A DNA stretch of 64,000 bases, taken from positions 800,765 to 864,764 of the forward strand of contig CAUYUJ010017815.1 in assembly GCA_963575745.1 (NCBI GenBank). Direction: 5' to 3'. A program made the translations under genes and the position numbers. Below, piece after piece: positions 33,717-62,015 of this stretch. The notes beneath the pieces were generated by a model. It was given only the letters and a program-made list of their open reading frames with translations. It was not told where the DNA came from and ran no database searches. How positions within the stretch are numbered: position 1 is the stretch's first letter; each line of letters begins with the position of its first letter. Origin of the DNA: Prorocentrum cordatum (Eukaryota; Sar; Dinophyceae; Prorocentrales; Prorocentraceae).

Positions 33717-34961
33717 TCAGTCTTTCCAGCGGAGTCTCTTTTCATCTCGACCATCCCGATCATCAGGGTAACCTCCGCCGCGCTTGCCACCCGCCTGCCA
33801 GTGATCCTCACGCCATCCGTCGCGCCACTCGCCCTGCCAACTGCTCCAGGTGTCCCAGGAACTTGTCGCACGGTCGCGCCAGCCCGTGTGGCGATAGCCG
33901 CCTTTGCTCCAGTCGTCTGTTTGGGAGTGCCGCAGGTAGTTGGCTCGTATCTTGATCCAGTCGATATCATGGCCCAGTCTCCTGTCCATCTCGTAGGCGT
34001 CGCACCCGCAGCCCTTCCAGGCCTCTAGGAAGTGGATGATATCCGCGGGCGTGTGTAGTTTCGGGTCGGACTTGGGCGCCCTCCATCCAGGGGGCAGAGT
34101 ACGCTGCGTGTTCGCTGTCCACAGTGCGCAAAAAACTGCTCCCAGCTGCGACTGAAGCCTGGACATGCAACTGGCTGGTGTCTCGTCGGGACGCTCGAGT
34201 TCGACGGTGCCCAGCCTGACTTTGTACATTGGGCCGCCTCCATCAGGGCAGGACAGCGTGTTGAGTGCGTCCTACTCCGAAGAGCCAGTGTGGCGAGATT
34301 AGTGGGGCCTCCGCTCAGGGGGCGTCGGGGTGGGCGCGGGAAGGCGCTCGTACCGCGAGGTGCCACCGTCGCTGGTCCTCTCGTGCCTCGCGGGGTTTCG
34401 AGCTGGAGCCCTCCCGCGATCGGCGTAGGGCGTGCCCTCTGTGACTGAAGTCGCAGTATCCTCGCGGCTGGTGTCGGAGCTGCCCACCGGCGGGCTACGC
34501 TGCGGGCCGTCTCCGCCTGAGCGATTCTCATCACCCTCCTGGGCCGACTCAGAAGGCGTGGGAGGACGGGCGGGCCCATCCTCTTCGTAGTCGGGCTCCA
34601 TCTTGTGAAGGGGGAGCCCGTCTTCCGCGCCTTCACCGCTGTCGTCGTCGGGCGGGTCCTGGTGGCCCATGCGTGAGTCGTCCGCTGAACCCTGAGACCT
34701 GTCTGTGTCGGCCGCCATGGGAGTATCTGGCCTGTCGTCACCACCAGAACACGCACCAGATGGAAGGGACCCTGCCAGGGAGGTGATCTCTGGCGCCGCG
34801 CCAGAGCTGCCTGCGGGGCTGGGTCCAGGGGGATTGCTTGCCCCGACCTTGGTGAATTGGTCCTGGGCTTTGGCGTCCTCGCCAAGCCACGGGAGGGAAT
34901 CCACGATGTCCACAGGTGCCTCGAACCCAATCTGGCTGCTGAGCGGGGGAAGGGCCGGAGG
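33717..34961 (-). pseudogene. Giant element 3'-terminal ORF, disordered then Arg/Trp/Gly-rich tail
   Basis: Continues in the same frame directly after the TAA at 34,964-34,962. The first part (to the TAA at 34,301-34,299) is rich in Pro, Ser, Asp and Glu (for example DDSRMGHQDPPDDDSGEGAE) and is probably disordered. After that TAA and a TAG at 34,274-34,272, the frame resumes with MYKVRLGTVELERPDETPAS, a short folded-looking region (DIIHFLEAWKGCGCDAYEMD), and ends in a tail of Trp/Arg/Gly/Asp repeats (WRDRATSSWDTWSSWQGEWR, then GGKRGGGYPDDRDGRDE) resembling RGG-type RNA-binding tails. Stop at 33,717. No enzyme motif. The unbroken frame across three stop codons suggests these stops were acquired recently. 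Confidence 0.5.
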
Positions 34962-35204
34962 TTAATCTGGATACAGCTGCCTGAAGTCGCGATCCAGGAT
35001 GCGGTCCAGGGTGGCCGGGCCAATGTTCCAAATCGGGACCAGACAGCGCCGGCAGCACCAAGTAGGGTTCCATTGGCGCCCCCACCAGGCCAGGGCACGC
35101 TTATCGATGGGGGGCAGTCCATGTTGCTCGGGAACTCCTATGTCTTCAGCCGGCTTCCATATGAAGCACCCCAGCGGCGGAGAGCCGGGGTCCCAGACCA
35201 GGAG
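34962..35204 (-). pseudogene. C-terminal piece of the interrupted CxxC ORF
   Basis: When the copia element and one copy of its target duplication are set aside, the minus frame arriving at 43,601 continues here without a shift. It reads through LLVWDPGSPPLGCFIWKPAE and a tryptophan/cysteine cluster (WNPTWCCRRCLVPIWN, a CxxC) to the TAA at 34,964-34,962. It shows that the copia insertion disrupted an open frame. Function unknown; the CCxxC pair could complete a zinc site begun upstream. Confidence 0.65.
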
Positions 35205-35209
35205 CGGGG
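35205..35209 (+). repeat. Copia target-site duplication, left copy
   Basis: CGGGG immediately before the 5' LTR, repeated at 43,601-43,605 after the 3' LTR. Five bases is the usual Ty1/copia duplication length. It could be scored as six (GCGGGG) if the LTR is taken to end at TTA. Confidence 0.8.
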
Positions 35210-35494
35210 TGTGTTTTGTATAGTGCAGTTGGCCTTCCGATCCGAGACGCCCCGAGACCGAGCGACTGCTGCTGCTGTTTCGGTCCGAGGGCGCCCTTGA
35301 GTCCCGGTAAGGCTACCGGGCGCGGCCGACTGGCCACACACTTACCAAGTGAGTGACTGTTTCAGCCCACCAGGGGCTAGCGAGATATCTTACAGATTGT
35401 TGTGTCGCTGGCGCGAGCTGTGGAGGAAAAGATTATCAAGATAATCATCTACGAGAAGATCATCAGCAGGCTTACGCCAGTGCCGACGATTTAG
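35210..35494 (+). repeat. Copia 5' LTR
   Basis: 285 bp beginning TGTGTTTTGTATAG and ending GCCGACGATTTAG. Identical to 43,316-43,600 except one base (CACACACTTACC here, CACACACATACC there). Starts TG but ends TTAG rather than CA. ATTATCAAGATAATC at about 35,432-35,446 is a short palindrome. It should contain the promoter and polyadenylation signal, but I cannot place them. Confidence 0.95.
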
Positions 35495-35495
35495 T

Positions 35496-35510
35496 TGGTA
35501 GCGGAGCCGG
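35496..35510 (+). other. Primer-binding site, initiator-Met tRNA type
   Basis: TGGTAGCGGAGCCGG begins one base after the 5' LTR. It resembles the TGGTATCAGAGC-type site complementary to the 3' end of initiator-Met tRNA used by many plant copia elements. Exact host tRNA not verified. Confidence 0.75.
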
Positions 35511-35534
35511 TCTGGCTCCACGGACCGGCTCGTC

Positions 35535-38500
35535 ATGACGACCGAAGCTGAGAAGCACGAGACCGTACCTTCTTGGGACGGAGATGTTGCCAGTTTCGAC
35601 TCCTACGTGATGCGAGTGAAGCTGTATGTGCGCGGGACCAAGAAGGACGAGAAGGGCCTCTGTGGGCCCAGACTGATGGCGAAGCTCCAGGGACGCGCTT
35701 GGCAGGGAGTACAGAAGTACGACAAGCTGGACAGCCTGGACGACCTAGAGGAAGATGCGACGACCAAGTTGCCGAAAGGAGTTAGCCAGTTGATCCAGTA
35801 TCTCAGGGAGAAGAGCGGCATCCTGGAGGTAGAGGACGCTGGCAAGTACATGCGGACCTTCATGAAGGAGACCTACCGGAAGAACCGGACCAGCATGAGA
35901 GACTACCTGACGCAGTTCGAGGTCGAAGAGGACCGGATGCAGAAAGCGATAAAGGCCATCGACAAGGATTTCGACGAGAAGAAGCCGATATTTCCGGAGC
36001 CGCTCCGAGCATGGTTTCTACTCGAGAACGCTGGCCTCGACGACCACGAGCGCTCGCAGGTGCTGGCCTCTGTGCAGAACAAATACGGGTACCAGACCAT
36101 CCAGCAAGCCCTCGGCATGCAGTTCGACAAGAAGCACGAACGCGACCACAACAACATGCGTGGCGGCAGGCCACCGTGGCAGGGGCGAAGCAAGAACTAC
36201 GCGGCCGAGGGCGACGAGGACTACTCGGAAGAGGACGACGAGGATGAAGAGGGCGACCAGCACAGCGAGAACGCGACAGCGCTGGCGGCAGAGGAGGACG
36301 AGTTCGCCAGCCAGATCCGGGAGATCTACGACCAAGCAGGTGACGACCAAGAGCTACGAGATGAGCTACTCGAGGGTGCTGTTTTTGCTGCTGCTCAACA
36401 AGGGCAGCGGTCCTTCAAGCAGGCCCGCGAGCTGCTGCGCCAGAAGAAGACCGGGCGGAAGTTCTTCGGAGGCCAGTTCGGGCAGAAGAAAGGCGGACAG
36501 CCGGCCAAGGGGGCAGGCAAGACGTCGACTTCGGCCAAGAGCTCGCCCGGAGGCGGAGGCCACCACCAGAAGAGGGACGACTCGTGGAAGACGGACCCCA
36601 ACACCATATGCCTGAGGTGCGGCGGCCGCGGCCACATAGCTAAGAACTGCAAGGCTCCAGCCAAGCTGCAGGCTGGACGTAGCTACAAGCATCTATCGTC
36701 ATCAGCATCACGACCGCGATCGACAGCAGCACGACCGAGACCGACGAGAATCCGAATACAAACACCCAAGAGTTCCAGAAGATTCTTGAGGTTTCGGAAG
36801 CTTTTGTCAAGGATTAGGCGTCCAAGTTCCAGGAGGGCCCCGAAGATCCAGAAAAGAAGGTTCAAGATTATCAAGCCAAGGGTTTCCAGAAGAGAGTCTC
36901 ATCGAGTATATGTGGTTTTCGAGCAGTGCATATTTATGGCCTCACAGCTCTCGGGGACTTTCAAGGGCATCTTGGACTCTGGGGCTACCTTATCCATGAT
37001 AGGTTTAGATACGGCGGAGATCTGGCAAGCCACGATGATGAAGATTGTAGGCCAGAACCGTATGAAGATAGTTCCTGGACCCCGAATCGAGTTTACTTTC
37101 GGGAATAACCAGAAGGCGAAGTCTCTGAATCACGCAAGTATTCCAGGATATGTCGACGGCCAAGAGTGTGACTTTCCAGTTTCAGTTGTGGAAGTGGAGG
37201 CCCCGCTTTTGATAGGTATGGATTTCCTGAAGCATTTCGGAGTGATCGTTGACTTCGAGCTCGGCACTATCAGGTTTAAGGCTTTGGGCAGTAAGACCTA
37301 CCTTCTAGAAAGATCCAGGTGCGGGCATCTTCTTATAGATTTCGGGCCACACGCTGAATGGAGAGAAGTTGTCACACACGATGCTCTGATTTCCGATGCT
37401 TCCGAAGTTTCTTGGGCTCAAGACGGTGATCGAGCTAAGGCTCTCGACTCAGACCAGCTTTCTATTCCATATCAGCCAGTGGATGCGATCATCATGCGGT
37501 GGCAGAAGCTCACGTGGCTCATCGCCACCCTCGGAGGTCTTCGCTACTTCGACGGCCTTGACGAGTACAAGGTGCGGCTGCTGCGGAGTTCCGGGGACCA
37601 CGACGGCCGGATGCTCATGCATGGGCGGCCGCAGCCACCAGTGTCAGGGACGACTTCCGTGCGGCCAGCCGCCGCTGATCAAGCCCTACAACCCCAAGAA
37701 GGAAGAGGAGACCGACGCTGGCGACATCAAGAGGCAGTACGACAGCATCAAGTGCGCGTGCTGCGGAGCGCCTGGGAGGCGCAGAGCGGGCTGCAGCTGT
37801 GTGGGCGGGCGCAGCCATGTGTGTCTGAGGATCCGCGCGGAGACGTCGAGTTCTGGGCCAGCGTCTTCGGGCTCAGCGGCCAAGAAGGAGGATCCGACGA
37901 CAGCGAGTCCGAGACCACCACCACCTCCGAGAGCAACTTTGAGCTCACCTTCGCCGCCGAGAGCGGTCTACCACGCGCCGAGGCCGAAGGCGTGCCCGGC
38001 AGCATGCAAGGCACCACCTCCGAAGAAGGCGACGGTGAAGGAGGAAGAGGTGGAGACAGTCCACGAGACGATCGACCTGGACACGGTGATGCAGACCAAC
38101 ATGCAGTTTCCGACCTGGGATCCGGCGAAGGAGACCCTGACCGAGCACATGGAGAGGATGAAGCAGGAGACCGAGGACACACCAGTGCCGGAGGACCACT
38201 GGGCGCTCCTCGACGAGATCAACAGCGTAGACAACTGGCTGAAGCTGACCAACCTGACGCTGGACAGGGAGGTCCGGACGCTACAGCGGAGGACGATCCG
38301 GGCTGCGCTGCGGCTGGTCAGGTGAAGACGCTCAACGCCACGCAGATCTACTTGCTCAACCAGAAGATCGCGGAGTTCGAGACGGCAGCGGCCAAGGACG
38401 CTCAAGATCTACTTCGACTTGGGCAGCTGGACCTGCTGGAGGTATGTGCTCCTCCAAACTCCCCGCTCGGAGTTGAGGTCGAGAAGCTCGGCGGCACCGT

Positions 38501-39215
38501 CCTCAGGCTCGGGAAGCACAACGAGTACGACCTAACGACCAACACTGGCTACAGAAGGGCTTCGGAGACGCTGAAGCTAGAGAATCCGAGAAGGGTCGTA
38601 TTTTCGCCACCGTGCACGGCCAGATCGATCATCCAGAACGCTAACCAGAGGACCGAAGATCAACGAGAGCGTCTGGAGCACAAGCGCCGAAAGAATGACA
38701 AGGTCACCCGGGCTTGTGTGCTACTTGCCTTCCAAGCACTACATCAAGGAGCCGAAGTTGACTTCGAGCAGCCGCTGAAGTGTGGGACCTGGTCCTTGCC
38801 ATACCTCAAGCGTCTTAGGGAGCAGCTGTTCACTGTACGAGTGGATGGGTGTGCTTATGGGTTGAAATATCCGAAGACAGGCGAGCTGATCAAGAAAGAA
38901 TGGCTGATAGCGACGTCCGACCCGCACCTCAACGCGACCATCGGCAGGACGTGCTCAAATCAGCGAGGCAGCCCGCACAACCACAAGCACGAGGAGATAC
39001 AGGGCAAGGTTACCGAGTTCACCGCAGCCTACCCGGCCGCGATGTGCAAGAAGTGGGCCAAGTCTATCATGAGGTGTGTGGAGTGGTCTACTTGGTGCGC
39101 GTGGGCTGGAGGCGACAATGAGACGGAATTCAGCGAGGCAGTGTACGTCACCAAGCGGCGCCTGGTCGGGAAGCAGCCGCTACCCAAGGCGCAGAGGCTG
39201 GAGATGGAGAAGTAG
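35535..39215 (+). CDS. Copia Gag-protease-MTase-like polyprotein, ends at TAG
   Basis: 1226 codons from ATG at 35,535. Residues 1-210 are the Gag helical region (SWDGDVASFDSYVMRVKLYV). An acidic linker follows, then a CCHC zinc knuckle at about 358-371 (CLRCGGRGHIAKNC). An aspartic protease with GILDSGATLSMIG (active-site DSG) is at about 480, and IGMDFLKHFGVIVDFELG follows. From about residue 966, LLEVCAPPNSPLGVEVEKLG, VVFSPPCTARSIIQ (motif IV-like PPC), VDFEQPLKCGTWSLP and CAYGLKYPKTGELIKKEWLI form a methyltransferase-like fold. After it comes a CxnHxH pattern (CSNQRGSPHNHKHEEIQ). Two stretches (36,690-36,905 and 37,570-38,320) read more naturally in other frames, so compensated indels are likely. 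The TAG at 39,213 is followed in frame by the pol half. Confidence 0.85.
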   Translation: MTTEAEKHETVPSWDGDVASFDSYVMRVKLYVRGTKKDEKGLCGPRLMAKLQGRAWQGVQKYDKLDSLDDLEEDATTKLPKGVSQLIQYLREKSGILEVEDAGKYMRTFMKETYRKNRTSMRDYLTQFEVEEDRMQKAIKAIDKDFDEKKPIFPEPLRAWFLLENAGLDDHERSQVLASVQNKYGYQTIQQALGMQFDKKHERDHNNMRGGRPPWQGRSKNYAAEGDEDYSEEDDEDEEGDQHSENATALAAEEDEFASQIREIYDQAGDDQELRDELLEGAVFAAAQQGQRSFKQARELLRQKKTGRKFFGGQFGQKKGGQPAKGAGKTSTSAKSSPGGGGHHQKRDDSWKTDPNTICLRCGGRGHIAKNCKAPAKLQAGRSYKHLSSSASRPRSTAARPRPTRIRIQTPKSSRRFLRFRKLLSRIRRPSSRRAPKIQKRRFKIIKPRVSRRESHRVYVVFEQCIFMASQLSGTFKGILDSGATLSMIGLDTAEIWQATMMKIVGQNRMKIVPGPRIEFTFGNNQKAKSLNHASIPGYVDGQECDFPVSVVEVEAPLLIGMDFLKHFGVIVDFELGTIRFKALGSKTYLLERSRCGHLLIDFGPHAEWREVVTHDALISDASEVSWAQDGDRAKALDSDQLSIPYQPVDAIIMRWQKLTWLIATLGGLRYFDGLDEYKVRLLRSSGDHDGRMLMHGRPQPPVSGTTSVRPAAADQALQPQEGRGDRRWRHQEAVRQHQVRVLRSAWEAQSGLQLCGRAQPCVSEDPRGDVEFWASVFGLSGQEGGSDDSESETTTTSESNFELTFAAESGLPRAEAEGVPGSMQGTTSEEGDGEGGRGGDSPRDDRPGHGDADQHAVSDLGSGEGDPDRAHGEDEAGDRGHTSAGGPLGAPRRDQQRRQLAEADQPDAGQGGPDATAEDDPGCAAAGQVKTLNATQIYLLNQKIAEFETAAAKDAQDLLRLGQLDLLEVCAPPNSPLGVEVEKLGGTVLRLGKHNEYDLTTNTGYRRASETLKLENPRRVVFSPPCTARSIIQNANQRTEDQRERLEHKRRKNDKVTRACVLLAFQALHQGAEVDFEQPLKCGTWSLPYLKRLREQLFTVRVDGCAYGLKYPKTGELIKKEWLIATSDPHLNATIGRTCSNQRGSPHNHKHEEIQGKVTEFTAAYPAAMCKKWAKSIMRCVEWSTWCAWAGGDNETEFSEAVYVTKRRLVGKQPLPKAQRLEMEK

Positions 39216-42200
39216 GCTGAGCTCGACATCGACCCCAAGGGCGAGCTCGAGTGCTGGGAGCGCGAGGACGAGAACGTCAAGACCTACATGGGAACGGACA
39301 TCGAGGGACCGGAGTGGCTTTCTGTGGTGCGGAGGCTTACCTGGGACCTCGACACCAACATCCTCATTGGCGACGAGCTGGGCGAGAGCATCCTGACCGA
39401 CGAAGAGATATACGCCCCGCTGCCGGAAGGCACGAGCCATACGAGGACACGCCTATACTTCAAGCGACCTGGGGTTCAACAAGAACAGCATGCAGCACCA
39501 CAACAGCAGGAAGCACCTCAGGAAGGTCAACCTGATCCAGTACCAGGCCCAGCTGAAGATCAGGTACCACCACCACCTCCACACTACGAGCCGCAGGAAG
39601 GTGAAGTGGACGTCGGTAAAGTTAACGGATATCTGCGAAGGCTGCATGTCAGGCTAGGGCATCGCAGCAACAAGACCCTCATCGACGTGCTCAAGCGGGC
39701 TGGCGCTCAAGGCCCTATCTTGAAATTAGCAGCTGAGTTCAGGTGCGAGGCGTGCGAGCGGCACAAGAACAAGCCGTTGGAGTCCGTGGTTGCGCCATAC
39801 AGCCCGGCCACACCAGGGAAGGCTATCGAGACGGACGGCTTCTACTGGACGGACCCTCGCGACAAGCAGACCTGGACCGGGACCTACATCGTCGATACAA
39901 GCACTCGGCTCAGCGGCGGGAAGCTCAACCTCAAGGGCCGACTCATGAGGTCAGGCGAGGAGTTCCGCAAGACGCTGCAGCAGACGTGGATGCAGTACTA
40001 CGGTCGACCTGCTCTACTACGCCTGGACGGTGAAGGCTGCCATGTCGAGAAGAGAGTCAAGGAGTGGCTATCGTCGCGCGGCATCATGGTGGACGTCACC
40101 GCCCGGCAGGCTCACAACCAGCTGGCGCTATGCGAGAGGAATATCGGCATCTTAAAGGATACCATGACCAAGATCGCAGAGGAGTCCGACGCCAAGGTTA
40201 CCGCGGATGAGATTTTCTGGGAGGCGATCGCCGCCATGAACGATCTCGGCAGGTACAAAGGCCACAGTCCCTACGAGATGATGCTGGGCAGGACCCCTGA
40301 GCCGATCGTGGGCGACGTGTTCGGAGAAGATCACAACCTGCCGATCCTCAGCAAGACCTACGAGGCCGACGACGACGAGTACATCAAGAACCAAAAGGTG
40401 CGACTCGAGGCGAGGAAGGCTTTCCTCGAGGTTACTTCTAGACGACGTCTTGCCCTACTGGAGCTACGCAAGACCAGAGAGAAGACACACTGGACTACAG
40501 GGCAGCTCTGCTACTGGTGGTCCGAGAAGGCGAAGGGCAACGTCAAGATGCCTGGTGGAGTTTGGGCTGGCCCGGCGACCGTCATCGCCCAGGAGCCCGG
40601 CTCGGACGGCAATCCAGGGTCAGTCGTCTGGATAGAGCACCACGGCCGACTTCTACGAGCAGGACGTGGCCACCTTCGACCAGCTACCGAGACGGAGATC
40701 GAGATCCACAAACTTCTTCATGGAGAGGCTGTTCCTCTTAACATCACCGCTGCCATGCTGAAGGTCAAGGCTAGCGAGTTCGAGGACCTGATCGGACAAC
40801 GCCTTCCAGATCTCGACGATGAAGATGACGCTTGGGTGATGGAGCCAGAGGATCCCTTTCCGCAGAAGGCGGGAGGTGGGCAGCCAGCCGCTGCCGAGAC
40901 TCAGGCGACCGAGGCGCCTACGACATCGGAGCCTGCAGGGGCAGCCGAGACCAAGGAGGAGGATACGAAGTCCGAGGATAAAAAGTCAGAGAAGGAGGAG
41001 AAGGAGGACGACCTTTCATCGGAAGATCTCGAAGCGCCAGAACCACCAGGCCAACTACCTGAAGACCTACCTGTACCTGGAGTTCGGCGACGCCAAGAAG
41101 CTGAAGAAGACGCCGCAGCCAAGAAGTCGCGCCAGACTACGAGAACCGGAGCTAAGCGCGGGAGAGACCTGGATGAGTTCGGCAAGCGGATGACCAACGA
41201 CCCCAACTCAGTTCAGAAGACCAGCGAGGACCAGGACGTCACCACCGAGCGCCAGGATGCCGTCTACCTGTCTATCGCGGTCCCCTCCCGGGATGCCCTC
41301 AACCGCTTCGTGAAGGACCCCAGGCTATACGTGGCTACACAGGCCAGGAGGCAGCGCATCGAGGTCAGCTACAAGAAGCTGGACGACAAGGACAAGGCGA
41401 AGTTCGACGTGGCTATGAAGAAAGAAGTTGATCAATTTCTACTCGCGCAGGCGTGCCGAGGTGTACTTCGGAGCAAGCTACCGGACGTCGACCTGATGAA
41501 GATGCGCTGGGTACTTACTTGGAAGGAGGACCCAGAAGCGGAAGGCGGCAAGAAGGCCAAGGCCAGACTGGTACTCATCGGCTACACCGACAAGGACCTC
41601 GAGACGCTCAAGACCGAATCGCCAACACCCTCGAGGCGAGCGCGCCAGATGCTATACCAGAAGGCGGCCAACGAGAAATGGAAGACGTGGCTTGCGGATG
41701 CTTCGTCAGCTTTTCTGCAAGGGGAAGCTACAGAGGAAGAGCGAGAGCTTTATGCACTACCAGTACCACAACTACGAGAAGCACTACAGCTCAACGACGA
41801 CGACGTTGTGCAGATTCTCAAGGCCTGTTATGGACTTACGAATGCACCCAGGCGGTGGTACGAGAAGGTCAAGAAGGATCTAGAGAGCAGAGGCTGGTAT
41901 GCATGCAAGCTCGAGCCGTGTCTCTTCACCAAGCTGAACTCAGACAACAAGGTGATCGGGCTCATCCTGGTGCACGTGGATGACTTCCAAATTGCGGGTG
42001 ACCTCACCAACGTGGAGTTCAACGTGGAGTACGAGCATCTCAAGACGCTATACCGATGGGGCATGTGGAAGTCAGACGAGGATGGCTATTCAGTTTGTGG
42101 AGTTGAAGTTTCCAGAAATCCAGATGGAGGCTTTAGGCTAAGTCAAGAAAAGTATGCCAAGACCATCCAGCCGATCAACGTCAAGAGAGGCCGAAAGGCT

Positions 42201-52096: not shown

Positions 52097-54480
52097 CTAA
52101 CGCCTCGCCAGCTGCCCCATCCACTGCAGGGATATGCGCTCGAAAGCTTTGTTTTGATCGCAAAAGAGGACAGCCGTGCTCGGGGCAGGGCCTAGTTGCC
52201 GAGCGGCGTCCAGTATATAGCGGTCAACAGCTTCTTGGTGCGCGCCAAGCAGGGCGGTCCAGGAGGGCCCGGGTTCGGTGTCGGGGACGGGATCCAGGGC
52301 AAGATGGTTGGTGGCAGCGGCGATGTTGGGGCCGCATTGTCCCCCGCGCTTGGCAGCTTGATTGGGGCTAAGCCTGGGTTCAATCACAGGGCCAAGGCAA
52401 TCGGCAATGGTTGCTCCATGCAGTCTCCGTAGGCAAGTGGGGAGCTGCAAGGGACGCATGTCGTCAGGGCGCTCTGCGGCCGGTTTCTTGCCGATCCAGA
52501 CCAGAAGGTCGACGGAGGGGCCAAGGACCAGGTCCAGGAGTCCTGGGTTCAGTGCCGCGGCGTACCAGGCTTGGGCGAGGAGTCCAGCAACAAAGCGCGC
52601 CCCGGGATGATACAGCTCGCACGGTTCACCGTCAACACCGGGGGCGCTGCCGCTAGGCCCCAGCACGAGGGAGGCAATCCTGCCCCACTGCGGGCTGGGA
52701 GAGTGTAGGAAGTGCCCCGTGTCCTTTTGTCTGAAGTACTCGTTGAGGATGCCATCCGCTGTAGGGGGGAGGGGAGGGGCGGTTTGCCAGATCGGACTCC
52801 GGCTCCGCCAAAGGACGTCTTCAACTTCCTTGGTGCGCTCCTTCCAGCTACCATCTTCGTCGCGCACTCCAAGGATGGCGTGCGTCCTGACGAAGATTTC
52901 TCGCCCCGTCCGGTAGTGAGAAGCAAGCGCGGGGCGCTCCACTCCGGGGCCCCTTTGAGCGGGCGTAAGGCGGGTGGCGCGTCTCTGCGCTGCGTCATGG
53001 TCCCACCTTCGCAGCCAGAGGGCAGCTTGCTGAGGTGTTAAGTCGTTGCCGTCCCACTCGTATTCCGCGAGCCAGGCAGCGAGTGCCCCCACCGGGCGCG
53101 TAGTGGAATCCGATCTTATCGCAGCCGCGAGCAGGGTCCCTGGCGAACGGTTGGTTTTGCTTCTGCGCCACTTCCTCCACCAGTCCTGCATTGCGGCTGA
53201 CAGGGCGTGTCGACCAAGCGTCAGGAGGGCGGGCAGAAGCGGGACGGTGTGGTCATCACCCGGATTAGGGGCCGGGGGAGGAGTGGAGGGTTCCTGCTCT
53301 CTTTCCCCTTCGCCGTCGTCGTTGTCGCAGTGACTGGCTGGGAATTGACCAGGGGTGGCCGGGCGAACCCAGTCGGCGGGTTGAAGGAGGCCGGTCAGGT
53401 CGATGTCCGGCAACTCGAAGGCGCGCTCAAGAAAGGAGTACAGAGTCCTTTTTTCAGCGTGCGCCTCGCTTGGGAGTAAGCGGAAGTCGCCCGCACGAAT
53501 GGTGTTGTCCCGGCGAGTTCTGGGGGCGCCCTGCGGCTCCATGTAAAGGATGGCGTGGTCGGAGACTGAGGGTTTCCAGGCCTTTCTGACCCCGTAGGCA
53601 CCGAGCTGACGAAAGGGGCAGGCAACGATGTCGATCTGTGATTCATTGTCCGCGTCCACTCTTGTGGGGCCATCGCAATGGCAGACGCTTGAACCAGTCA
53701 GTGAGAGCAGGTCAGCCAGGGCCGCTGCCTCATCTGTTTCACCGTCCCTGGGATTGTCCAACTGGATGTTGACGTCCCCTCCCCAGTATGTAGGGGTGTC
53801 GTCCCACATTTCGATGGCTTGCCTGATGGCATCAATGGTTTCGGCTTTCCTGGAGGGGGGGAGGTAAACCGAGACCAGGCGGTAGGTGCTGTCACCTCGG
53901 CTAATGGTGGCTGCAACGGCACATCTGGGGACGAGGTCTTCCGCCCGGAGGAGTGTGGTGCCGTGGGGAATGATGATCGCCACTCCGCCAGCGCAACCCC
54001 CGGCTGGTCCAATGTAGGCGGGAGAGGCGACAAGTGCACGCGCGTGAAACACGGTGGACCAGACGGCCGCCTCGTGTTTTGTCCAGTGGGTCTCCTGAAT
54101 GAGTCCGATCCTACCGTTGGTAGTCATCTGCGTCAAGAAGGCATGCTTGATCATGTTCTTGTGAGCAGTCGTGCTTTTGAGGTGCCTAACGTTCCAACAG
54201 CCCACCTTGAGTGAACCGGCCTGCGTGGCTTCGGAGATGGCATCGATAAGTGAAAGAAGGGAAAGGGCCCCGCAGAGGTCCGCCCAGGTGGGGTTGCTCC
54301 AGGGGGTAGAGCGTAAGAAAGCCCAAAGGGCACGCGGTCGCCGGACGGTGCGGTTACTGTGCAGGGCGAGGGCACGGCTCAGGGAGGAGCAGGCTAGTTG
54401 CCAAGCTCTGGTTCTCGCCCCCGGAACGAGAGTTGCGAGCGGGGGAGACCCAAGGGCGAGATGAAGCGCCCCTGGGTCTT
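52097..54480 (-). pseudogene. LINE APE-type endonuclease and RT (5' half), ends at TAG
   Basis: Open to about 54,622; coding sense is convincing from about 54,480 (TRAWQLACSSLSRALALHSN). Endonuclease: LKVGCWNVRHLKS near 54,205, GLIQETHWTKHEA (catalytic Glu), GPAGGCAGGVAIIIPHG, YRLVSVYLPPS, TYWGGDVNIQLDNP (Asp/Asn), SQIDIVACPF and SDHAILYME (catalytic Asp-His). RT: SLVLGPSGSAPGVDGEPCEL, DDMRPLQLPTCLRRLHGATI, PVIEPRLSPNQAAKRGGQCG, and STAVLFCDQNKAFERISLQW (motif A, with D). The TAG at 52,099-52,097 falls between motifs A and B and the frame continues unchanged, so this is one EN-RT-RH protein of about 1,800 residues with a single nonsense codon. APE-type EN plus RNase H is typical of I/Tad-like LINE clades. 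Confidence 0.88.
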
Positions 54481-54908
54481 CAGGCGAGTCTAGGGGAACG
54501 GCAACCCTTGATCTAGGAGCTGCTGCTGCAGCCTGACTCGGACTATGTCGTCTGGACAGGGGTTCCCGGCGAGCGGCGCCCAAGGGCAGTTCCTGTCGGC
54601 AAAGCTGCGTGCCTGTCTCCACGCGGCCCAGATCTGGCCCTCAGTCGGAGCTAAGTGCTGGCACCCGGAGATGTTCTCGTTCCTACTCCAATCCAGTATG
54701 GCGGTCGCAAGTCTGCGCTGTAGGCATCTCGGGTCCAGGTGGGCTCCCACGGCGTCGTAGAGTTTCTTTCCACTGACGCCCAGAGACCGATAGTAAGAGC
54801 CCAGCCCCACTGCCCGGGCCCGCTCCTCAGGAGATGGGATCATGAGTCCGTGTTCCCTGCCGTGGGCCAGGAGCCATCCCGCCCAGGCCCTCGCTTTTCC
54901 TTCGCTGG
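54481..54908 (-). pseudogene. Segment linking the DNMT to the LINE endonuclease
   Basis: After the CT repeat the coding sense is in a third frame: SEGKARAWAGWLLAHGREHG, then SYYRSLGVSGKKLYDAVGAH, RCLQRRLATAILDWSRNENI and RQARSFADRNCPWAPLAGNP, to a TAG at 54,492-54,490. The endonuclease frame begins within a few bases. It has no recognised domain. 'Target-recognition' or linker function for the methyltransferase is possible but unsupported. Confidence 0.5.

Positions 54909-54970
<62 letters not shown>
54909..54970. repeat. (CT)n microsatellite inside coding sequence
   Basis: About 60 bp of CT (one TT interruption) within the giant element. On the coding strand it reads GAGAGA..., giving Arg-Glu repeats in one frame. 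The coding sense changes frame exactly across it, so repeat-length change is the likely cause. Confidence 0.95.
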
Positions 54971-54971
<1 letters not shown>

Positions 54972-56186
54972 GTGGCAGACGAGCGTCAGTCCTTCCGTGC
55001 AGCCCGGGAAGTTGCGCTCGGCTCCGGTCTCTTGAAGAATGTTTCTGATGCAATTCCTGGTGTCGACGAGGGCGCGGAGGAGCCATATGTGGCTGCTGTC
55101 CCCATCGTATAGCAAGCAGAGGGGATGCGTCTGGTAACTGCAAGGGGCTATTGCCTCAGGGGGGTTGGCAGGAGCCTTGGACTGGGTCCAGGGAGGGACG
55201 TGCCCGTCTGGTCTGTAAGTCCATCGCCTTTCCCAGGGACTGGGGAGCCGAGGGTGCGTAACTGGGTTCTCCGCGGGAGGGCAATCGCTGAACCACAATC
55301 GGTCCCTCGGGCTGGCGACTGTGGCCGCAGAGTCCACGCGACCCGCCCAGTCTGGGGGAAGTTCCCCCAGTGCAGTGCACATTGCCTGCTTGTGTGCCTG
55401 TAGGATGGTGGCTGGACCTTCGCAGCATATTATGACGTGGACGTCCGGGCGGAGTCTGCGGGCGGCGTTCCACAGGAGAGGCACGGCGAAGAACTGCGCT
55501 GTCCGGGAACCCGCGAGTCCATCTAGCCCTCCGTACTGGCTGGCTGCAGAGAGGCTGGCACATGGGAGCCCCGCTGTGATGACGAGTAAGCTTCCAGGGT
55601 CCAGGGTTCTGAGGTGGTCGGTCCAGGGACGCCTACCGTCGTCCTCCCTCAGGAGGTCCCACACGTTAGCTCCCAACCTGATGTGCGGGGGTCCTCTATC
55701 AAAGCGCGTGGCAGCGTCCCTGTCCCAACGCCTCTCCACCAGAGCAGTAGCTTCGTCGCTGAACTCGACGAACGCGGAAGATCTGAACCGAGAAGTCGCG
55801 GTAACTTTGGTTAGGAGGTCGCCTACCGCAAGTCTCGCCAGGCCCCATTCATCGAAGAGTGATACAAGGTGAAGACTAGCTCCCGCAGTGGTGCTCGGGC
55901 CAGGTCGAGGGTTGACTATGCGTGCCCTCGTCTGCTGGGTGAAGTCGTAAGTCCAGTCCTCCCCATGTCTGGGGTCACTGATGGGGTGGAGTCTGAGGTG
56001 TCCCGCGATGTCCCAAGTGCCGTCGGGGGAAACGCTGGAAACGAGGCCATCCTGCTGGAGGGTCCTTAGTGTGTTGATGATCTGTGCGTTGTCCAGGCCC
56101 GCGGCCTGGTACGCCGCAAGCGTCGTGTCAGCAGGTGTGACTGGGGAGAGGCCAGTTCGCCCGTCCCTATGTCGCTCCCAAACCTG
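54971..56186 (-). pseudogene. Winged-helix-like segment plus C5 cytosine methyltransferase
   Basis: Open from just after the TAG at 56,189-56,187. The first part, QIINTLRTLQQDGLVSSVSP followed by DGTWDIAGHLRL, resembles a winged helix. The methyltransferase follows from about 55,900. Motif I is HLVSLFDEWGLARLAVGDLL, motif II is SSAFVEFSDEATALVERRW, motif III is HIRLGANVWDLL, and motif IV is VITAGLPCASLSAASQYGG with the catalytic Cys in Pro-Cys. Then come VHVIICCEGPATI in the ENV-motif VI position and SPRDRLWFSDCP as motif VIII (RxR). The motif I 'SLFDxxGxAR' style is closest to DNMT3-like enzymes. The C-terminal part (motifs IX/X) is interrupted by the CT repeat, where the frame is lost. Expected role: CpG or other cytosine methylation of element or host DNA. 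Presence of the catalytic Cys suggests the ancestor was active. Confidence 0.72.
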
Positions 56187-58260
56187 CTAGAGCACGTCGG
56201 CAGGCTGGGGGGCGGCCGTGGGCTCTTCTGGTAGGAAGACGGTGGGTCGGGGCCGCGGCCTGCGGATCCGTGCGCCCTCCGCGCTCGCCGGTCTGGAAGC
56301 TCGCCTTGTGGTACCTCTTCCTGCGGCCCCAGTGGGAGGGCCCTCCCCTGGGCGGGAGCGTTCCCAAAGGTCGACCAGAGTTCTTGGGTGGGGAGATCTG
56401 CTGTCTGGTCGGGTGGACCTTTCCCTGTCTGTGTTGCCCGTAGCCCTGCGTCGTGTCACACCGCGTAGTGCGGTCCTGCGCGCGCCGTCATTTCTGCCTC
56501 TGGGTGGCCGGTGGGTCTGACTCCCACGGGTCCTGTCAGCGGCGGTAGGCTGGGGCTGGGTGCTGGGCGCTACCGATCGCGGTCCAGTTGAACCTCGATG
56601 ACGGGCACGTCTGGATTGCCCGCCGTCGGCTGCGCTCACTGCAATGCTGGCCGGGGCACGTGCCGGTCTGGGAGTGCCAGCGCGTCGGGCGGTGCTACCG
56701 GTACTGCGAAGGTTCCTTGGCGAGGCCTGCACCGTCTCGCTCAGGACCTGGCCCCTATCATCCGAGAAAGGGGGGCCCGCACCCGCGCGCAGGATGGCGC
56801 AGAGCATGGCTGGCGCCAGGCTCTGAAAGGGGGCGTCTGGTGTCGACACACTGTCCGAGCGCGAGGCCGGACCACTTGCGAGCTGCCTCAACTGAGCGCA
56901 GGCCGCGTCTGCAGTCAGAGCTGCTTGGCGTGAGTTTATCCTCCTGCCGGCGGGGTTGCGCGTAGGAGGGTGGGTAGTCCAGTAAGCGCCGAAGGCGTCT
57001 GGGATTCGCGTAGCGAGTCCTAGCTCTTGGTGAAGGTTTCTGACAGTTTTGTCCAGCTGGGGTATTGCTGCGGCCCATGCGATCACACTGAGCACTCGGT
57101 TCCAATCGGCTTCGGAGGGGGGGGGTGCCTGTGCCGTCTGAGGCGTGTGTCCGCGCCAGTCTGAGCGTGCGCGCCATGGCTTCAAATTCCCGTCTCCAGT
57201 CCGCGCCCATGCATGGGGGGAGCTCAGGCCCAGCTCGCAGTGTGTCTCCTCGCCCCAGGGGGTCGTTGCAAGTGCTGGGCGCCGTGCCCGGCGGCGGTCT
57301 CCTGCTCTGGACTGTCGCCGGATCCGTCGGGACCCGTGGAGGTGCGTCTTCGTTGCGCGCCGCGCCCCCCGCGTCTGGGGCGCTGGCAGCCGGGGCCGCA
57401 CCCCGAACCTCCTCTGTACTGTCGAGCGTCGCGGCTCCGCACCCTCTGGTCGATCGCAGCTCAGCGTTGGTGTTTGTTTCGTCCTGAGAGCCTGAGAGAT
57501 CCGTGGGCTCCCAAGGGTATTCACGCCGATGTGTCTCTCGGGAGGTGCCGCGGGGTCAGGACTATCTCGTCTCACAGCTTCAGCACCGCTGCAGGCTGCG
57601 GAGGAGACTTCGCCTGCGCCCGGGCTCGGCGTGGCAGCGCAGACCGGGGCGTGTGAACGTGCTGGTCCCTCTCTGGGTGTCGCGGGGATCGCAGAGGTCG
57701 TCCGGGGTGGGAGTTGGGCGGTACTGCCGGCCCGGGTAGCGGCCTCGTCCGATACCCCTTCGCCGACCGGTCTGGCCACGGAGGGTGGTGCCGTACTTTG
57801 CTCTTGTGGTGCCGTCTGCCGTCGAGGTTGTGCTCCCAGTGTGGTGAGCGTCGGATTGTCGTTGGCCTCTCTGCTGGGGTTGGCGCAAGTCTGTGGTGTC
57901 ACCGACGTGGGGAGCCCGGGGCTTGCATGTGCGGCTGGCGGTCTCGGGCCTGCCGCCGTCGGTGGTCTGGCGTCACTTGCCTGCATACCTGCCACGTCCG
58001 CCTCATTGTTCGCCCGACTGCGGCTTCTGCGCTGGCTCGTACCTGGGTTGTCCGTGGGTCTGTCCCCCGCTCCGGCGGTTCTGGGGGTCTGCGAGGTGCC
58101 TCTCCTTCCCCGGGTGACTCTCCCGGGGTCATGGCGCTGTCGCTCCTCCGAGTGTAGGTTGGACAGCCTGTTGATCAGGGCGTCCAGGGCATTCGAGACA
58201 CCTTCCGGGACTGGGAGCGCCGTGGTGGCATATCTACGTCTGCACCTCTGGATCCGGGGA
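56187..58260 (-). pseudogene. Giant element Pro/Arg-rich ORF, ends at TAG
   Basis: Continues after a frame change within an overlap with the upstream ORF (about 58,175-58,260; the frame reads TTALPVPEGVSNALDALINR and on). Mostly low-complexity Pro, Arg, Ala, Thr and Ser, probably disordered. One segment near 57,120-56,870 looks folded and helical: DWNRVLSVIAWAAAIPQLDK, then QELGLATRIPDAFGAYWTTH and LTADAACAQLRQLASG. It ends ..PADVL at the TAG (56,189-56,187), after which the same frame continues into the winged-helix and methyltransferase. It may be the analogue of a retroelement ORF1/linker; no nucleic-acid-binding motif is seen. The nominal start at 57,995 is not an ATG. Confidence 0.45.
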
Positions 58261-60330
58261 CCTCGAGCCAGGGCTGGTGGGCTGAGTAGGTGCCGTCCGG
58301 CTCAGGCGCGAGCCATTGGATGAAAGGGAGCTGTCTCGTGATTTCTTCTCGGATCCCGAGCTCTCGCATGAGTTGCCAAACGTGGTCTCGGTCCAGGCTC
58401 CCCGGGCTTGCTAGTTGCAGGATCCAGATGGCGGCGAACATGTCCCAGTTGTATCTCTGGATGGGCCGACCCTCGAGTTGTCTGCGGATTTCGAAGGCAT
58501 TCCGGCGTTGGACGCCGCGCGCCATGTCGTGCACTGCTTGCTCCGGGACCACGGCAGCGTATCTACCCAGCATCCCCCGCGCGATGCGCACCGCGTCTTC
58601 ATCGGCTCTTACCAGTTCGGCTGGGGGCGGTCTGCACGCACGCACTAGTACCTCAGCGAGCTCTGGAAAGCGAGTGGGTCTGGCGGGTCCAGGGAGTGGG
58701 TTGAGTGAAGCCGAGGTACGTCTAGGAAGTGGCTGCTGGGAGGGGGCGTGGACCCTCAGCCCCACTGATGCGGGAGTTGGTGTGGCTGCGGGAGCAGAGT
58801 CCAGGCGTGCAACGTGGATGGGGCCCGCGGCAAGCTGTAGTTTGAGTCTCGCTTGTGGTCTGCCAGCACCCCTCGTGGCTGCCCTAATGTCCGCGTCCGC
58901 AGGGAGGAGCACCGTCACCCAGGTGGGGGCCGAAGTGAAAAGGAAACCTGTCTCTCCGCTGGTGGTGACCTCGACGGCCCCTCCAGCCGCTATTGCGGCG
59001 AGTAAGTATTCTCCGGGCTGTAGGACAGTCTCGTAGTCCCGTAGGCCGCTTCCCTGCGACATGCTAGGTACGGTATTGGGCGCGCTCCTGCTCATCGCCC
59101 TGGCGTTATCTCGGAGCCAGTCGCCCGTGATGATAGGTGGGGCAGCTCTGGTGTTGGCTGGTTGTGAGGCACCGTCCGGGCCCTCCGGGAGTGGCCAGAG
59201 TCGAGTTAGTAGCTGGGCGTTCGCTAAGCCGACCGATGCACAGAAGAGCCGTAGCGTACTGTGTCCAGGGAGCCAAGCGTCAGGGCGCATGCTGCGTGGG
59301 CGAATTTCTCCCAGCTGCGTCCCGTGCCTGTCGAGAGTGGTGATCTCGAGGACTTGGGGCTGAATGGCGCGTCTGGGGGCCTGTCTTACAGCGGTGCTGG
59401 CCAGCGCGTCCACATGCTCTTGCAGTGCCCTGGATGTCGCAGCCGCTCTGTGCATGGGGTCCCTGCTAGGTGTGGCGGGGAAAATCCTGACCGTCTGCGC
59501 TCCGATCACAATACAACTGGTGCCCACGAAGGCTGCTGCCATGGCATCGGCCGCAGCTAAGCGTATGCGAACTTGCGTCATGTATCTGTAGTCAGAGACG
59601 TCTGGGAACCAGGCGTATACGGTGGAAACCTGTTCGACTGTGCCAGGACCAGTCGTGGCCTCTACGGCTTGCAGGACGTCCTCTGGCCGTGTTTGTCCCA
59701 TGTCAGCGAGATTCCATCTTAGGTGGAAGCCGTCCTCGGGGTCAGAGAGGCGCACAAAGGAGGGTCCTCCATCCCACGGTCCTTCCAGGAGGACGCGGCG
59801 GGGTCCTAGTGCCATGGAGGAGGAGGCGTCCCCAAAGACCCACGGGAGCTCGTCTCGGAGGTGCCTCAAGACGGGGGCGGCAATCCGTTCTGGAGTGGCG
59901 ATCAGGAGAAGCCCCGCCCCGCAAATTCCGACTCTGTGTCCCATAGCTCCAGCTGTTGTGGAAGCTACGGAGTGGGCTATGCAGATCGCTCTGGGGGGAA
60001 CTGGGATGTGTACAGAGTCACTTGTCTCGTGTGTTCTCCAGACGCATGCCGTCTGGTAGGCCAGCATGGTGGTTTGAGCTGCCGCCTGCAGATTATCCAG
60101 GGGGGCACGTATGCCGTCCTCACAGCTCGTTGGTCTCGATGCTCTACAGCGGAGGACGTGGTGGAAGAGCATCTCGAGTCCCTGGCATATCAGGAGCTCG
60201 TCCCGGGGGAGCTGCACTCTCGTGGTGACCCAGTCGGCTGCGATCATCCCGTTGTGAGATCGCCCTAGTTCATCCCTCCACCTCATGATCTGCGCAACGA
60301 CGCCGTCATTGCCGCTCTCAGGGGTAGGAT
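58175..60330 (-). CDS. Giant element large protein of unknown function
   Basis: Open frame of about 715 codons; the first ATG (60,286) overlaps the stop of the RING ORF as ATGA, but coding sense in this frame already begins near 60,330 (PTPESGNDGVVAQIMRWRDE). Folded-looking blocks: AGLLLIATPERIAAPVLRHL, PSFVRLSDPEDGFHLRWNLA, EQVSTVYAWFPDVSDYRYMT, ETVLQPGEYLLAAIAAGGAV, and an N-terminal-to-central cysteine-poor composition. A C-terminal region (VHDMARGVQRRNAFEIRRQL and DHVWQLMRELGIREEITRQL) is helical. I do not recognise a family. It lacks zinc fingers and enzymatic motifs visible to me. Position between RING and DNMT suggests it is a structural or accessory product of the element, for instance a capsid or RNA-binding protein, but that is speculation. 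Confidence 0.5.
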
Positions 60331-61638
60331 GTGTAGCGCATCAGAGGTGTCCCCATTCCTTCCACCCCAGTGCACAACTATTGACGGGGGTAGGATCGTG
60401 CGCAGTGTCCTGCCCTCTAGGTCGAACTGCGCGGCGAAGAGTTGCTGCATTGGTGGGCTGGGCTTGCCTGTTCGGTAGGGGAGTCCAATCGGCACGAGAT
60501 GGGTAATCTTGCTGGCGGCTCGGTATCCCCACTGCGCGTTTGCCAGGGCTGCGAGCTCGACCGGATCCGGTCCTCCGGGTGACGGCACTCCCTCAGTGGC
60601 CAGGGCGACGAGGCAGCATGGGCTGCCCGCGGCGGTAGCTGCCGTCAAGGCGGCGTCCATGTGCTGAGCTAGGGCATCTACCACGAAGATTGTTGGGGCG
60701 GCGCTCCCCTGAGGCTGGTTCCTGCGCTCCGAGACTACCGCCTTGATCTGCTCCCAGGCGTCTGGGCCTGCGAGGGCAAAGGTGACTCCAGTCTCGTCCG
60801 CTACACGTTCGCCGAGGTAGGTGCTTCTGGAGATTACCAGATCGGCTGCAATGTCTCGGACGGCCGTTGTGAGCAGCCCTACCGGGAACCGGCCAGGTCC
60901 CCTCCTCATGGGTTCATCCTCTGGGGGGTTCCGTCCCAGTAGCAGTGCCCATCTTCCGAAGGTGATTCGCGGGGCTTGCCGTATCCTATCTGTCCTGTTG
61001 GTGGGACCAGGGGGTCGCTGCGGAGGCGAGGTCCCAGGTCCCTGCGTGCTGTTGCAGGTGTCGTCGGCGCCCCTGCCGCTTCCACCGTTCCCGCCGTCTG
61101 GTGGGGCCCCGTCCACTTCCATCGGGGCATGATGTGCCTCCTGCGCGGTTCTCCTTTTCGTAACGTGCGCGTGGATCCTGCGCATGTCTGAAAGTGTGAC
61201 GTATGTGTGGGGACGTCGGATGGAGAGCGTTTGTGCTCTGAGGCAGTCCATATCTGGGGCCAGGTGCCTGAAGGCATCGGCTAGCTCTTGCAGGCTCAGG
61301 AATGGCTGCAGTGGGAGAAGGGTCCCGTCGCGGAGCTGTAGGAGGTCTGGTGGTACCGCAATGTCCGCGGCGTCGGCATCTCGTGGTCGGTCTGGAATTC
61401 TTACGGAGACGCTACCCCTATCTACGGAGCGGCATATGGGACAGTTCACAGGGAAACATCTTCCGTGGGACAGGGCCTGCGCTGGCTGGCTAATCCTCCA
61501 CTGTCTCAGGCATTCGGCGTGATACAGGTGGCCGCATGGTACCAGGGCTTCCGCGAAACCTAGGGTGTCCTCGCTGCAGATCATGCATCGAGGGGTTCCT
61601 ACCTCCCGGTCCCAGGGGGGAACTTCCACGGCGTCCAT
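60283..61638 (-). CDS. RING-H2 protein at the 5' end of the giant element
   Basis: 451 codons from ATG at 61,638 to TGA at 60,283. Residues 18-70 form a RING-H2 finger: C18, C21, C35, H37, H40, C43, C66 and C69 (CMICSEDTLGF, then VPCGHLYHAECLRQW and NCPICR), a C3H2C3 pattern. RING-H2 fingers recruit E2 enzymes in ubiquitin ligases. A disordered Gly/Pro/Asp-rich middle (about 175-230) is followed by a domain of about 200 residues containing WEQIKAVVSERRNQPQGSAA, TIFVVDALAQHMDAALTAAT and CCLVALATEGVPSPGGPDPV, an alpha/beta-like layout I cannot name. The last about 15 residues are read in a frame likely displaced near 60,330, as the next ORF's frame looks coding from there. A ubiquitin ligase in a retroelement array is unusual. 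Confidence 0.75.
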   Translation of the reverse strand: MDAVEVPPWDREVGTPRCMICSEDTLGFAEALVPCGHLYHAECLRQWRISQPAQALSHGRCFPVNCPICRSVDRGSVSVRIPDRPRDADAADIAVPPDLLQLRDGTLLPLQPFLSLQELADAFRHLAPDMDCLRAQTLSIRRPHTYVTLSDMRRIHAHVTKRRTAQEAHHAPMEVDGAPPDGGNGGSGRGADDTCNSTQGPGTSPPQRPPGPTNRTDRIRQAPRITFGRWALLLGRNPPEDEPMRRGPGRFPVGLLTTAVRDIAADLVISRSTYLGERVADETGVTFALAGPDAWEQIKAVVSERRNQPQGSAAPTIFVVDALAQHMDAALTAATAAGSPCCLVALATEGVPSPGGPDPVELAALANAQWGYRAASKITHLVPIGLPYRTGKPSPPMQQLFAAQFDLEGRTLRTILPPSIVVHWGGRNGDTSDALHILPLRAAMTASLRRS

Positions 61639-61960: not shown

Positions 61961-62015
61961 GACATGCTGGCGTCGAGGTGTGTCAGGCTGGCTCCTTCAC
62001 TGAGGTGGGATAGTA
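61961..62015. other. Junction between two satellite types
   Basis: Short unique stretch; nothing recognised. Confidence 0.3.

Follow-up and report, generated by a model that had tools for sequence, protein, structure and literature searches.

The window, a 64,000-nucleotide stretch of the 4.13-Gb genome of the dinoflagellate Prorocentrum cordatum, carries on its minus strand a decayed, 5'-incomplete copy of what is very probably a giant, mostly sequence-specific, AP-endonuclease-type non-LTR retrotransposon (LINE). The copy spans 32167..62015, including a copia element and a 113-bp repeat inserted into it; these limits rest on blastn colinearity with copies C15140, C18960 and (with a gap) C13886, and on a 3' end common to six fetched copies. 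As originally observed, the large frames all lie on the minus strand in one orientation, from about 61.8 to 33.7 kb. The predicted extent of 33,717-61,638, about 19.5 kb with copia removed, was too small: the array ends near 32,167, upstream homology continues to about 62,015, and the element itself measures 27.3 kb. The window copy is broken and has lost its own 5' end; homology to other copies stops at about 62,015, and roughly 6.1 kb of the 5' sequence of C15140 is missing.

The complete anatomy is seen in C15140, which is 27,289 bp end to end. It comprises, in order, a spliced-leader-like start, a leader, ORF1 with a RING-H2 finger, ORF2, ORF3, a 3' UTR and a short A tail, and is flanked on both sides by the 13-bp target duplication GTATCCCCACCAG. 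ORF2 encodes an AP endonuclease, a reverse transcriptase (RT) and an RNase H, and ORF3 a zinc finger and a UPF1/Sen1-type helicase; all three ORFs are very long, and broken in this copy. An element of about 27,000 bases exceeds the usual LINE size several-fold. The first 22 nucleotides of C15140 differ at 4 of 22 positions from what we take to be the spliced leader.

ORF1 is represented in the window by its C-terminal part (54490..62015, minus strand), traced by third-position phase through indels, some of them specific to the window (for example near 60325 and 58232). It contains a RING-H2 finger of the C3H2C3 type (61429..61590, minus strand; PF13639 E 1.7e-6, above cut-off). The same Cys/His pattern, read by eye, is present in all four copies that reach the RING (the window, C15140, C18960 and C13886), and PF13639 scores above cut-off in the first three. 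A conserved region (58175..60340, minus strand; dN/dS 0.09) has no Pfam match, and its AlphaFold model was unusable (mean pLDDT 30.6), while a Pro/Arg/Thr-rich linker region (54840..58301, minus strand) is in part poorly conserved. Among 16 further copies sampled by place, ORF1 was detected in nine and not at the expected distance in six; the remaining one was all N.

ORF2 (49070..54490, minus strand) lies in the -1 frame relative to ORF1 and overlaps it, and the ORF1 stop is conserved at this overlap, falling within TTCCCCTAG in all four sequences compared. The ORF2 stop at 49070 is common to five of six sequences compared, C13808 having an indel there. Within this one ORF, an AP-endonuclease-like domain (approximately 53531..54214; PF14529 E 2.2e-4, below cut-off, with active-site motifs read by eye) lies upstream of the RT (approximately 51600..52750; motif A FCDQNKAF near 52150, YVDD at 51878-51889) and an RNase H (RVT_3, 49262..49624; E 0.0039 in the window and 0.001 in C15140, below cut-off in both), all on the minus strand. 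Pfam missed the RT of the window, which an in-frame stop at 52097-52099 divides between motif A and motifs B/C; in C15140 and C18960, RVT_1 just reaches its cut-off of 29.6 bits (29.7 and 29.6 bits; E 6e-7 to 7e-7). The RT carries the catalytic D and YxDD and is very divergent, its best PDB match being R2 at E 0.17. One query with the RNase H-containing frame of C15140 returned no protein relatives outside this genome.

Considering this layout, we propose that ribosomes may enter ORF2 by slipping into the -1 frame at the conserved TTCCCCTAG, and may re-initiate to translate ORF3. Alternatively, ORF1, ORF2 and ORF3 might be translated from separate spliced-leader mRNAs, made by trans-splicing within one 27-kb precursor, with frameshifting and re-initiation unused. 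Dinoflagellate mRNAs are described as receiving a spliced leader (PMC6050394), and we saw no ATG in the ORF2 frame ahead of the endonuclease, both of which fit trans-splicing. However, the ORF1 stop lies inside the open -1 frame of ORF2 in four sequences, an arrangement that frameshifting explains equally well or better, and we hold trans-splicing to be a possible but rather unlikely route.

ORF3 (33717..48962, minus strand) runs from a putative start codon to a final stop common to six sequences compared, and encodes a zinc finger, an SF1 helicase and a long C-terminal region; the copia insertion interrupts the ORF. The helicase core (45552..47099, minus strand) is of UPF1/Sen1 type (AAA_12 E 1.2e-27 and AAA_11, both above cut-off), and carries GPPGTGKT, DEAG, VGDPNQLPP, YRMHP, QGGE and AITRAK, which we take to be the SF1 core of UPF1-like helicases. 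Changes confined to single copies include DEAR in the window, where motif II reads DEARQ in place of the DEAGQ of other copies where aligned, and GPHGTGKT in C13830. The C15140 helicase finds Sen1 as its best PDB match (E 3.5e-31). We considered a viral-type helicase and rejected it, the best matches being Sen1, UPF1, SMUBP-2 and IGHMBP2, with coronavirus and other helicases matching only weakly. Judged by its sequence, the helicase is of cellular, not viral, type. The earlier suggestion of an RNA-virus-like polyprotein element fails on this UPF1/Sen1/IGHMBP2-like character and on the presence of three ORFs with conserved stops. A giant single ORF was also discarded as a candidate, the 4,427-aa frame at C16502 being an artefact of an N run.

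In the scheme we favor, the ORF3 helicase would strip RNA structure or bound proteins from the 27-kb template and thereby permit full-length copies, and the ORF1 RING may bring ubiquitin conjugation to the ribonucleoprotein or to a host restriction factor. These are the most likely roles that domain content suggests. The helicase could instead help the element to evade defence or to control the host, for example by countering RNA decay or silencing, rather than process the template. SF1 helicases of insect LINEs have been argued to be silencing suppressors or antiviral (PMC5563155, PMC6338049), which gives this idea some footing; those helicases, however, are viral in type and lie within ORF2, whereas the present one is UPF1/Sen1-like and occupies its own ORF, and a defensive role seems to us conceivable, if doubtful.

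Not every domain named in the original prediction was recovered. The RING and SF1 helicase stood with Pfam scores above cut-off, and the AP-endonuclease-like and RNase H domains with scores below it, but a predicted DNA methyltransferase was found neither in the window frames nor in the copies. DNMT (PF00145) was absent from 20 frames of the window, 19 of them on the minus strand and one from copia, at Pfam E up to 0.01, from ten minus-strand frames rescanned at E up to 10 and from 19 frames of copies, in a scan that covered frames under about 150 aa only in part.

The idea of one oversized non-LTR element with RING and helicase is borne out by the rest of the genome, where the same parts recur in the same RING-APE-RT-RNase H-helicase order in other copies. 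The RT frame has matches at 78-95% protein identity at 44 or more other scored places (at least 44). C15140 (95% nucleotide identity) and C18960 (81-83%) contain the entire window array. C13886 (77%) retains both termini but is missing about 5 kb that takes in the endonuclease and a portion of the RT. C13808 and C18576 are 5'-truncated, and C13830 is interrupted by a gap of Ns; frames are broken in every copy read in detail. In six of six fetched copies the helicase occurs together with all or some of the RT/RNase H frame, and the RING is present in the three that reach it, linking both to this RT beyond the window. Among matches listed for both, the distance from RT frame to helicase start is 5,362-5,432 bp on nine of ten contigs, window included, a comparison resting on contigs common to lists of 45 and 79 scored matches; C20275 is the contig out of register.

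It is very improbable that this order arises from a nested or tandem stack in which separate RING-bearing, APE-RT LINE and helicase-bearing retroelements, inserted in the same target repeat, mimic one element. The target does gather elements head to tail: in C15140, C13830 and L056, further leader-headed sequence directly follows a target copy. Yet a search for internal boundaries by means of the 12-base target core gave no occurrence inside the array pieces of fetched copies, and colinearity holds at 77-95% identity. The constant RT-helicase spacing, the single outer duplication pair in C15140 and the ORF1/ORF2 overlap with its conserved stop likewise speak against a stack. An assembly artefact joining unrelated scaffolds has a negligible probability: the assembly does contain N runs, as the C16502 frame attests, but the order is identical across contigs with differing flanks, the spacing is constant, and the C15140 and C18960 pieces are free of N.

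The main domains are under purifying selection relative to diverged copies (dN/dS 0.07-0.21), and the 3' UTR is not (0.61-0.95 in the four copies computed); all values are pairwise, between partly decayed copies, with the coding frame taken as the lowest-value frame, in agreement with the phase track. Against C18960 and C13886, respectively, dN/dS was 0.20 and 0.17 for the RING region, 0.09 and 0.09 for the middle of ORF1, 0.11 and 0.10 for RT/RNase H, and 0.21 and 0.14-0.21 for the helicase. The endonuclease gave 0.07 (C18960, C18576) and the 5' part of ORF1 0.16-0.21. Constraint is weak at 56.2-58.3 kb (0.36-0.49) and 48.3-49.2 kb (0.47-0.57). RT dS and helicase dS climb together from copy to copy. 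Combining these observations, the unity of the element is supported by the colinearity of its copies, some of them 5'-truncated, by target duplications and a short A tail, by the constant RT-helicase spacing and by shared purifying selection. Its LINE nature is marked by target duplications, an A-rich 3' end, 5' truncation and a lack of LTRs: C15140 begins with the leader-like sequence and ends with the A tail, and the sole LTR pair seen in the window belongs to the inserted copia.

Insertion occurs mostly at a fixed sequence, as in R1/TRAS-like LINEs. In the window, the 3' UTR and short A-rich tail (32167..33716, minus strand; dN/dS 0.61-0.95 in all frames, shared terminus) adjoin the target sequence GTATCCCCACCAG at 32154..32166, minus strand, as read from the junction. 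Aligning copies for termini and duplications, a check proposed at the outset, recovered both the shared 3' end and the 13-bp duplications. Eleven of 13 3' junctions adjoin the target, their 13-mers (picked visually, allowing a gap of at most four bases behind the tail) matching it at 10 or more places, as do 0.02% of 20,000 random window 13-mers. The exceptions are L055, which ends in a long A tail but lacks the target, and C13886, where 8 of 13 positions match; no terminus was found in four of ten sampled 3' stretches. The predicted 35-mer empty site gave printed counts of 2,978 forward and 2,978 reverse, against 0 and 0 for the control. The 5'-truncated C18576 is bordered on both sides by GATGTATCCCCA. 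Rfam returned no ribozyme, with one match each at the target region and 5' leader (E 0.36 and 0.35), far below gathering scores. As a separate observation, the 5' leader of C15140 holds four CTTCC-loop hairpins (mean 0.13 and at most 2 in 200 shuffles), and 3' UTRs hold 0 to 3, mostly within the shuffle maximum, with none in C18960.

These features suggest a cycle in which the element RNA, to judge from the anatomy, would bear a spliced-leader-type 5' end. The endonuclease would cut the bottom strand of the repeat at ...CTTCGC/GTATCCCCACCAG..., and the released 3' end would prime reverse transcription from the A tail, a target-primed mode consistent with the junction structure. A second-strand cut 13 nt away would then produce the target duplication. 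Because both duplications retain the target, further copies could insert beside the first.

Several known elements share parts of this design. SymbioLINE-Dnmt of Symbiodinium (PMC5890265) is also a dinoflagellate LINE with an enzyme ORF upstream of an endonuclease-RT ORF and with target duplications; it carries a cytosine methyltransferase, whereas none was found in the giant LINE, and is reported to be without poly-A tails, whereas the giant LINE has short A tails. The main text of that paper uses neither the word helicase nor the word RING. Lepidopteran TRAS/R1-clade LINEs, among which TRAS elements target telomeric repeats, have likewise added an SF1 helicase and an upstream zinc-binding motif, but their helicase is described as of RNA-virus origin and sits at the ORF2 C terminus (PMC5563155, PMC6338049), unlike the UPF1/Sen1-like enzyme in a third ORF. 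Among giant elements (PMC6431247), the planarian Gypsy-like Burro has extra ubiquitination-linked domains but is an LTR retrotransposon, whereas the giant LINE has no LTRs. The Penelope-like Terminons of bdelloid rotifers have extra ORFs and form head-to-tail, mostly 5'-truncated arrays, but differ in their Penelope-type RT and telomeric location, the giant LINE having an AP endonuclease, an RNase H and a target that is dispersed. In DinoSL-tagged retrogenes (PMC6050394, PMC12014239), reverse-transcribed copies likewise keep a relic of the spliced leader at their 5' end; those are host genes, whereas the leader-like sequence of C15140 stands at the head of a retrotransposon.

No such LINE emerged from a literature search that included a 2019 review of giant transposons, a weak test drawing on sources other than preprints, most subscription journals and Repbase. 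We think it probable that the copies represent a new group of giant sequence-specific LINEs, 27 kb long with about 7,700 codons in three ORFs. On this probable reading, the group captured a helicase of cellular Sen1/UPF1 type and a RING domain as aids to copying very long RNAs, took over the dinoflagellate spliced leader for its 5' end, and forms head-to-tail arrays at a dispersed repeat that offers thousands of empty sites. Typical LINEs are compact, and their 5' ends are often lost when copying stops short. End-to-end copies of a 27-kb LINE raise the question of whether a dedicated helicase extends the reach of reverse transcription. The giant LINE also provides insertion machinery specific for a defined 13-bp site. 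It may have supplied the reverse transcription that gave rise to spliced-leader-tagged dinoflagellate retrogenes, and it is a candidate contributor to the huge genomes of dinoflagellates.

The copia element that interrupts ORF3 in the window (35209..43600, plus strand) is younger and not part of the LINE, being absent from six other aligned copies. Its LTRs (35209-35494 and 43315-43600) differ by one mismatch in 286 positions, and its target duplication is GCGGG(G). C15140 holds the empty site of this insertion, and the ORF3 frame runs unbroken across the same site in C13808 and C13830.

The minus-strand frames of the array span 61.8 to 33.7 kb in the frame listing of the window, which sits at the extreme end of its contig (G000:C16966:800765-864764). 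The original prediction had read them as one oversized non-LTR element, or an RNA-virus-like polyprotein element, in which a RING, a methyltransferase and a helicase accompany a LINE core. All but one of these parts were recovered. Pfam scored two domains in the window frames above its cut-off, RING and SF1 helicase; its matches to RNase H and to a domain resembling AP endonuclease were below. The reverse transcriptase (RT) of the window is recognised by its motifs FCDQNKAF and YVDD, one on each side of an in-frame stop (52097-52099); the RT of the copies on contigs C15140 and C18960 reaches the RVT_1 cut-off. The methyltransferase fell away, as Pfam found none in the scanned frames of the window and copies. 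A copia element, with one mismatch in 286 between its LTRs and a GCGGG(G) duplication, is inserted within the array.

Searching the genome (4.128 Gb, 21,875 contigs) placed the RT frame at no fewer than 44 further scored places with 78–95% protein identity, from 45 of 3,058 first-look candidates scored. We fetched six copies whole and compared them with the window by blastn. The window's order of parts does recur: colinearity with C15140 and C18960 extends from ~61,727 to 32,193, minus the copia, and in all six copies the helicase follows the whole or part of the RT/RNase H frame. In C13886 both ends are there, but ~5 kb (near 57.1–52.0 kb) is missing, with the endonuclease and some of the RT. 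C13808 and C18576 start within the element, and C13830 has an N gap upstream. Among the matches listed (RT on 45 contigs, helicase on 78), RT and helicase lie on the same strand 5,362–5,432 bp apart on nine of the ten contigs common to both, the window's contig included; C20275 is the exception. ORF1 was at its expected position in 9 of 16 further sampled copies, absent from six and all N in one.

A third-position divergence track is coding-like across most of the array, and most of its phase changes fall at indels between the window and other copies. Shared stops delimit three ORFs, at ~71.9–82.8 kb (ORF1, approximate start), 82.8–88.2 kb (ORF2) and 88.3–95.2 kb (ORF3) of C15140. Counting the window, the ORF1 stop within TTCCCCTAG is common to four of four sequences, the ORF2 stop at 49070 to five of six (C13808 has an indel there) and the ORF3 stop at 33717 to all six, with an extra stop two codons earlier in C13808. 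We saw no ATG in the frame of ORF2 ahead of the endonuclease, and this frame is open in -1 over the ORF1 stop, which makes CCCC a candidate site of -1 frameshifting into ORF2. ORF3 begins ~100 nt past ORF2 with MPKNNQGP-like residues and a CxxC-H-H motif whose first Cys is missing from the window.

Selection has kept the accessory domains together with the RT, as the distribution of constraint over the domains indicates. Pairwise dN/dS in the coding frame, for the window against C18960, C13886, C18576 and C13830 where alignable, was 0.07 for the endonuclease, 0.09 for the middle of ORF1, 0.10–0.12 for RT/RNase H, 0.14–0.21 for the helicase, 0.17–0.20 for the RING region and 0.18–0.38 for the ORF3 tail; in the strongly constrained stretches the remaining frames were near or above 1. 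Constraint is weaker in a linker (56.2–58.3 kb; 0.36–0.49) and at the ORF2/ORF3 junction (48.3–49.2 kb; 0.47–0.57), and the 3' UTR gave 0.61–0.95 in every frame for the four copies where it was computable. The 5' part of ORF1, which the window copy lacks, gave 0.16–0.21 for C15140 against C18960 and C13886, and 0.39–0.52 over a stretch with a frame change. When the window is paired with the closely similar C15140 and C13808, its values are higher (helicase 0.58–0.74), the outcome expected if the two members of a pair each decay once inserted.

For the helicase of C15140 the best matches were Sen1 (E 3.5e-31), UPF1 and SMUBP-2, and also IGHMBP2, all far better than viral-type SF1 helicases. Its core motifs were found across copies, with single changes such as DEAR for DEAG in the window and GPHGTGKT in C13830. 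The RING zinc ligands are kept in all four copies extending that far, and the C13886 RING contains a stop. The element belongs to the LINE kind, with an RT too diverged for placement here. Dinoflagellate LINEs with a DNMT (PMC5890265) and insect LINEs with viral SF1 helicases (PMC5563155, PMC6338049) are already known; unlike them, the giant element has no DNMT that we found and a helicase closest to Sen1/UPF1. The available part of a 2019 giant-transposon review covers giant LTR and Penelope-like elements and describes no giant LINE (PMC6431247).

On its 5' side the C15140 copy runs 6.1 kb beyond the point where that of the window stops, and it supplies both ends. Flanked by the 13-mer target GTATCCCCACCAG at 69464-69476 and 96766-96778, its element is 27,289 bp long and ends in A8. 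It starts with TCCGTAACCCCCTTGGCTCAAG, which shares 18 of 22 positions with the 22-mer taken as the dinoflagellate spliced leader; published papers give the 21-base core of that leader. C13886 has the same left target, then a looser leader-like start. Element ends of this leader-like type suggest a dinoflagellate genome. In C15140, C13830 and the fetched stretch L056, additional leader-headed sequences follow a target copy, so the site gathers elements head to tail. One such junction, at ~855 of L056, joins an A tail, the target and the start of another leader-headed sequence in direct series.

We examined 13 3' junctions (7 + 6, the second set being 10 stretches with the terminus not found in 4), with strings chosen by eye and a few bases of slack. 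Eleven match the target at 10 or more positions, versus 0.02% of 20,000 random window 13-mers. C13886 has only 8 of 13 matches. Stretch L055 carries a long A tail at ~649 and no target at its junction (6 of 13), so insertion is not strictly site-specific. The empty site predicted from filled-site flanks, CTTGACGCTTCGCGTATCCCCACCAGCCCATCCAG, occurs ~3,000 times in the genome at up to two mismatches (control 0 and 0); we claim only this number because the equal forward and reverse counts (2,978 each) may be one count repeated.

Alongside the observed structure, ends, target, linkage and constraint, we propose that the element would move by target-primed reverse transcription, with the spliced leader as the probable 5' end of its RNA. 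Downstream ORFs may be reached by -1 frameshifting and re-initiation; the helicase could aid processivity on the 27-kb template, and the RING could connect to ubiquitin conjugation.

Four GCGACCTTCCGTCGC hairpins, then CCTGGA, occupy ~4770–6460 of L031, the 5' leader of C15140; the window, C15140 and C13808 have similar hairpins in their 3' UTR, and C18960 has none. Just upstream of the RING, the window has a 113-bp unit inserted in the element as two tandem copies (61730-61955, 91% alike) that C15140 lacks, and at 62062-63931 repeats of 97–300 nt (CACGATGGACAAACAAAGGCTTCGCC...) occupy the place expected for the element's 5' part, reaching near the contig end. At 32072-32166, two copies of GTATCCCCACCAG lie 82 bp apart around a short insert ending CAAAA, as if a different family had left a strongly 5'-truncated copy at the same target. 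Another target-like copy (GTATCCCCGCCAG + CCCATCC...) lies at ~29853, with an A-tailed fragment before it. Between the two, at 30771-32056, a 105-nt unit is repeated in an array; read on the minus strand, its 35-residue units may be pentatricopeptide repeats.
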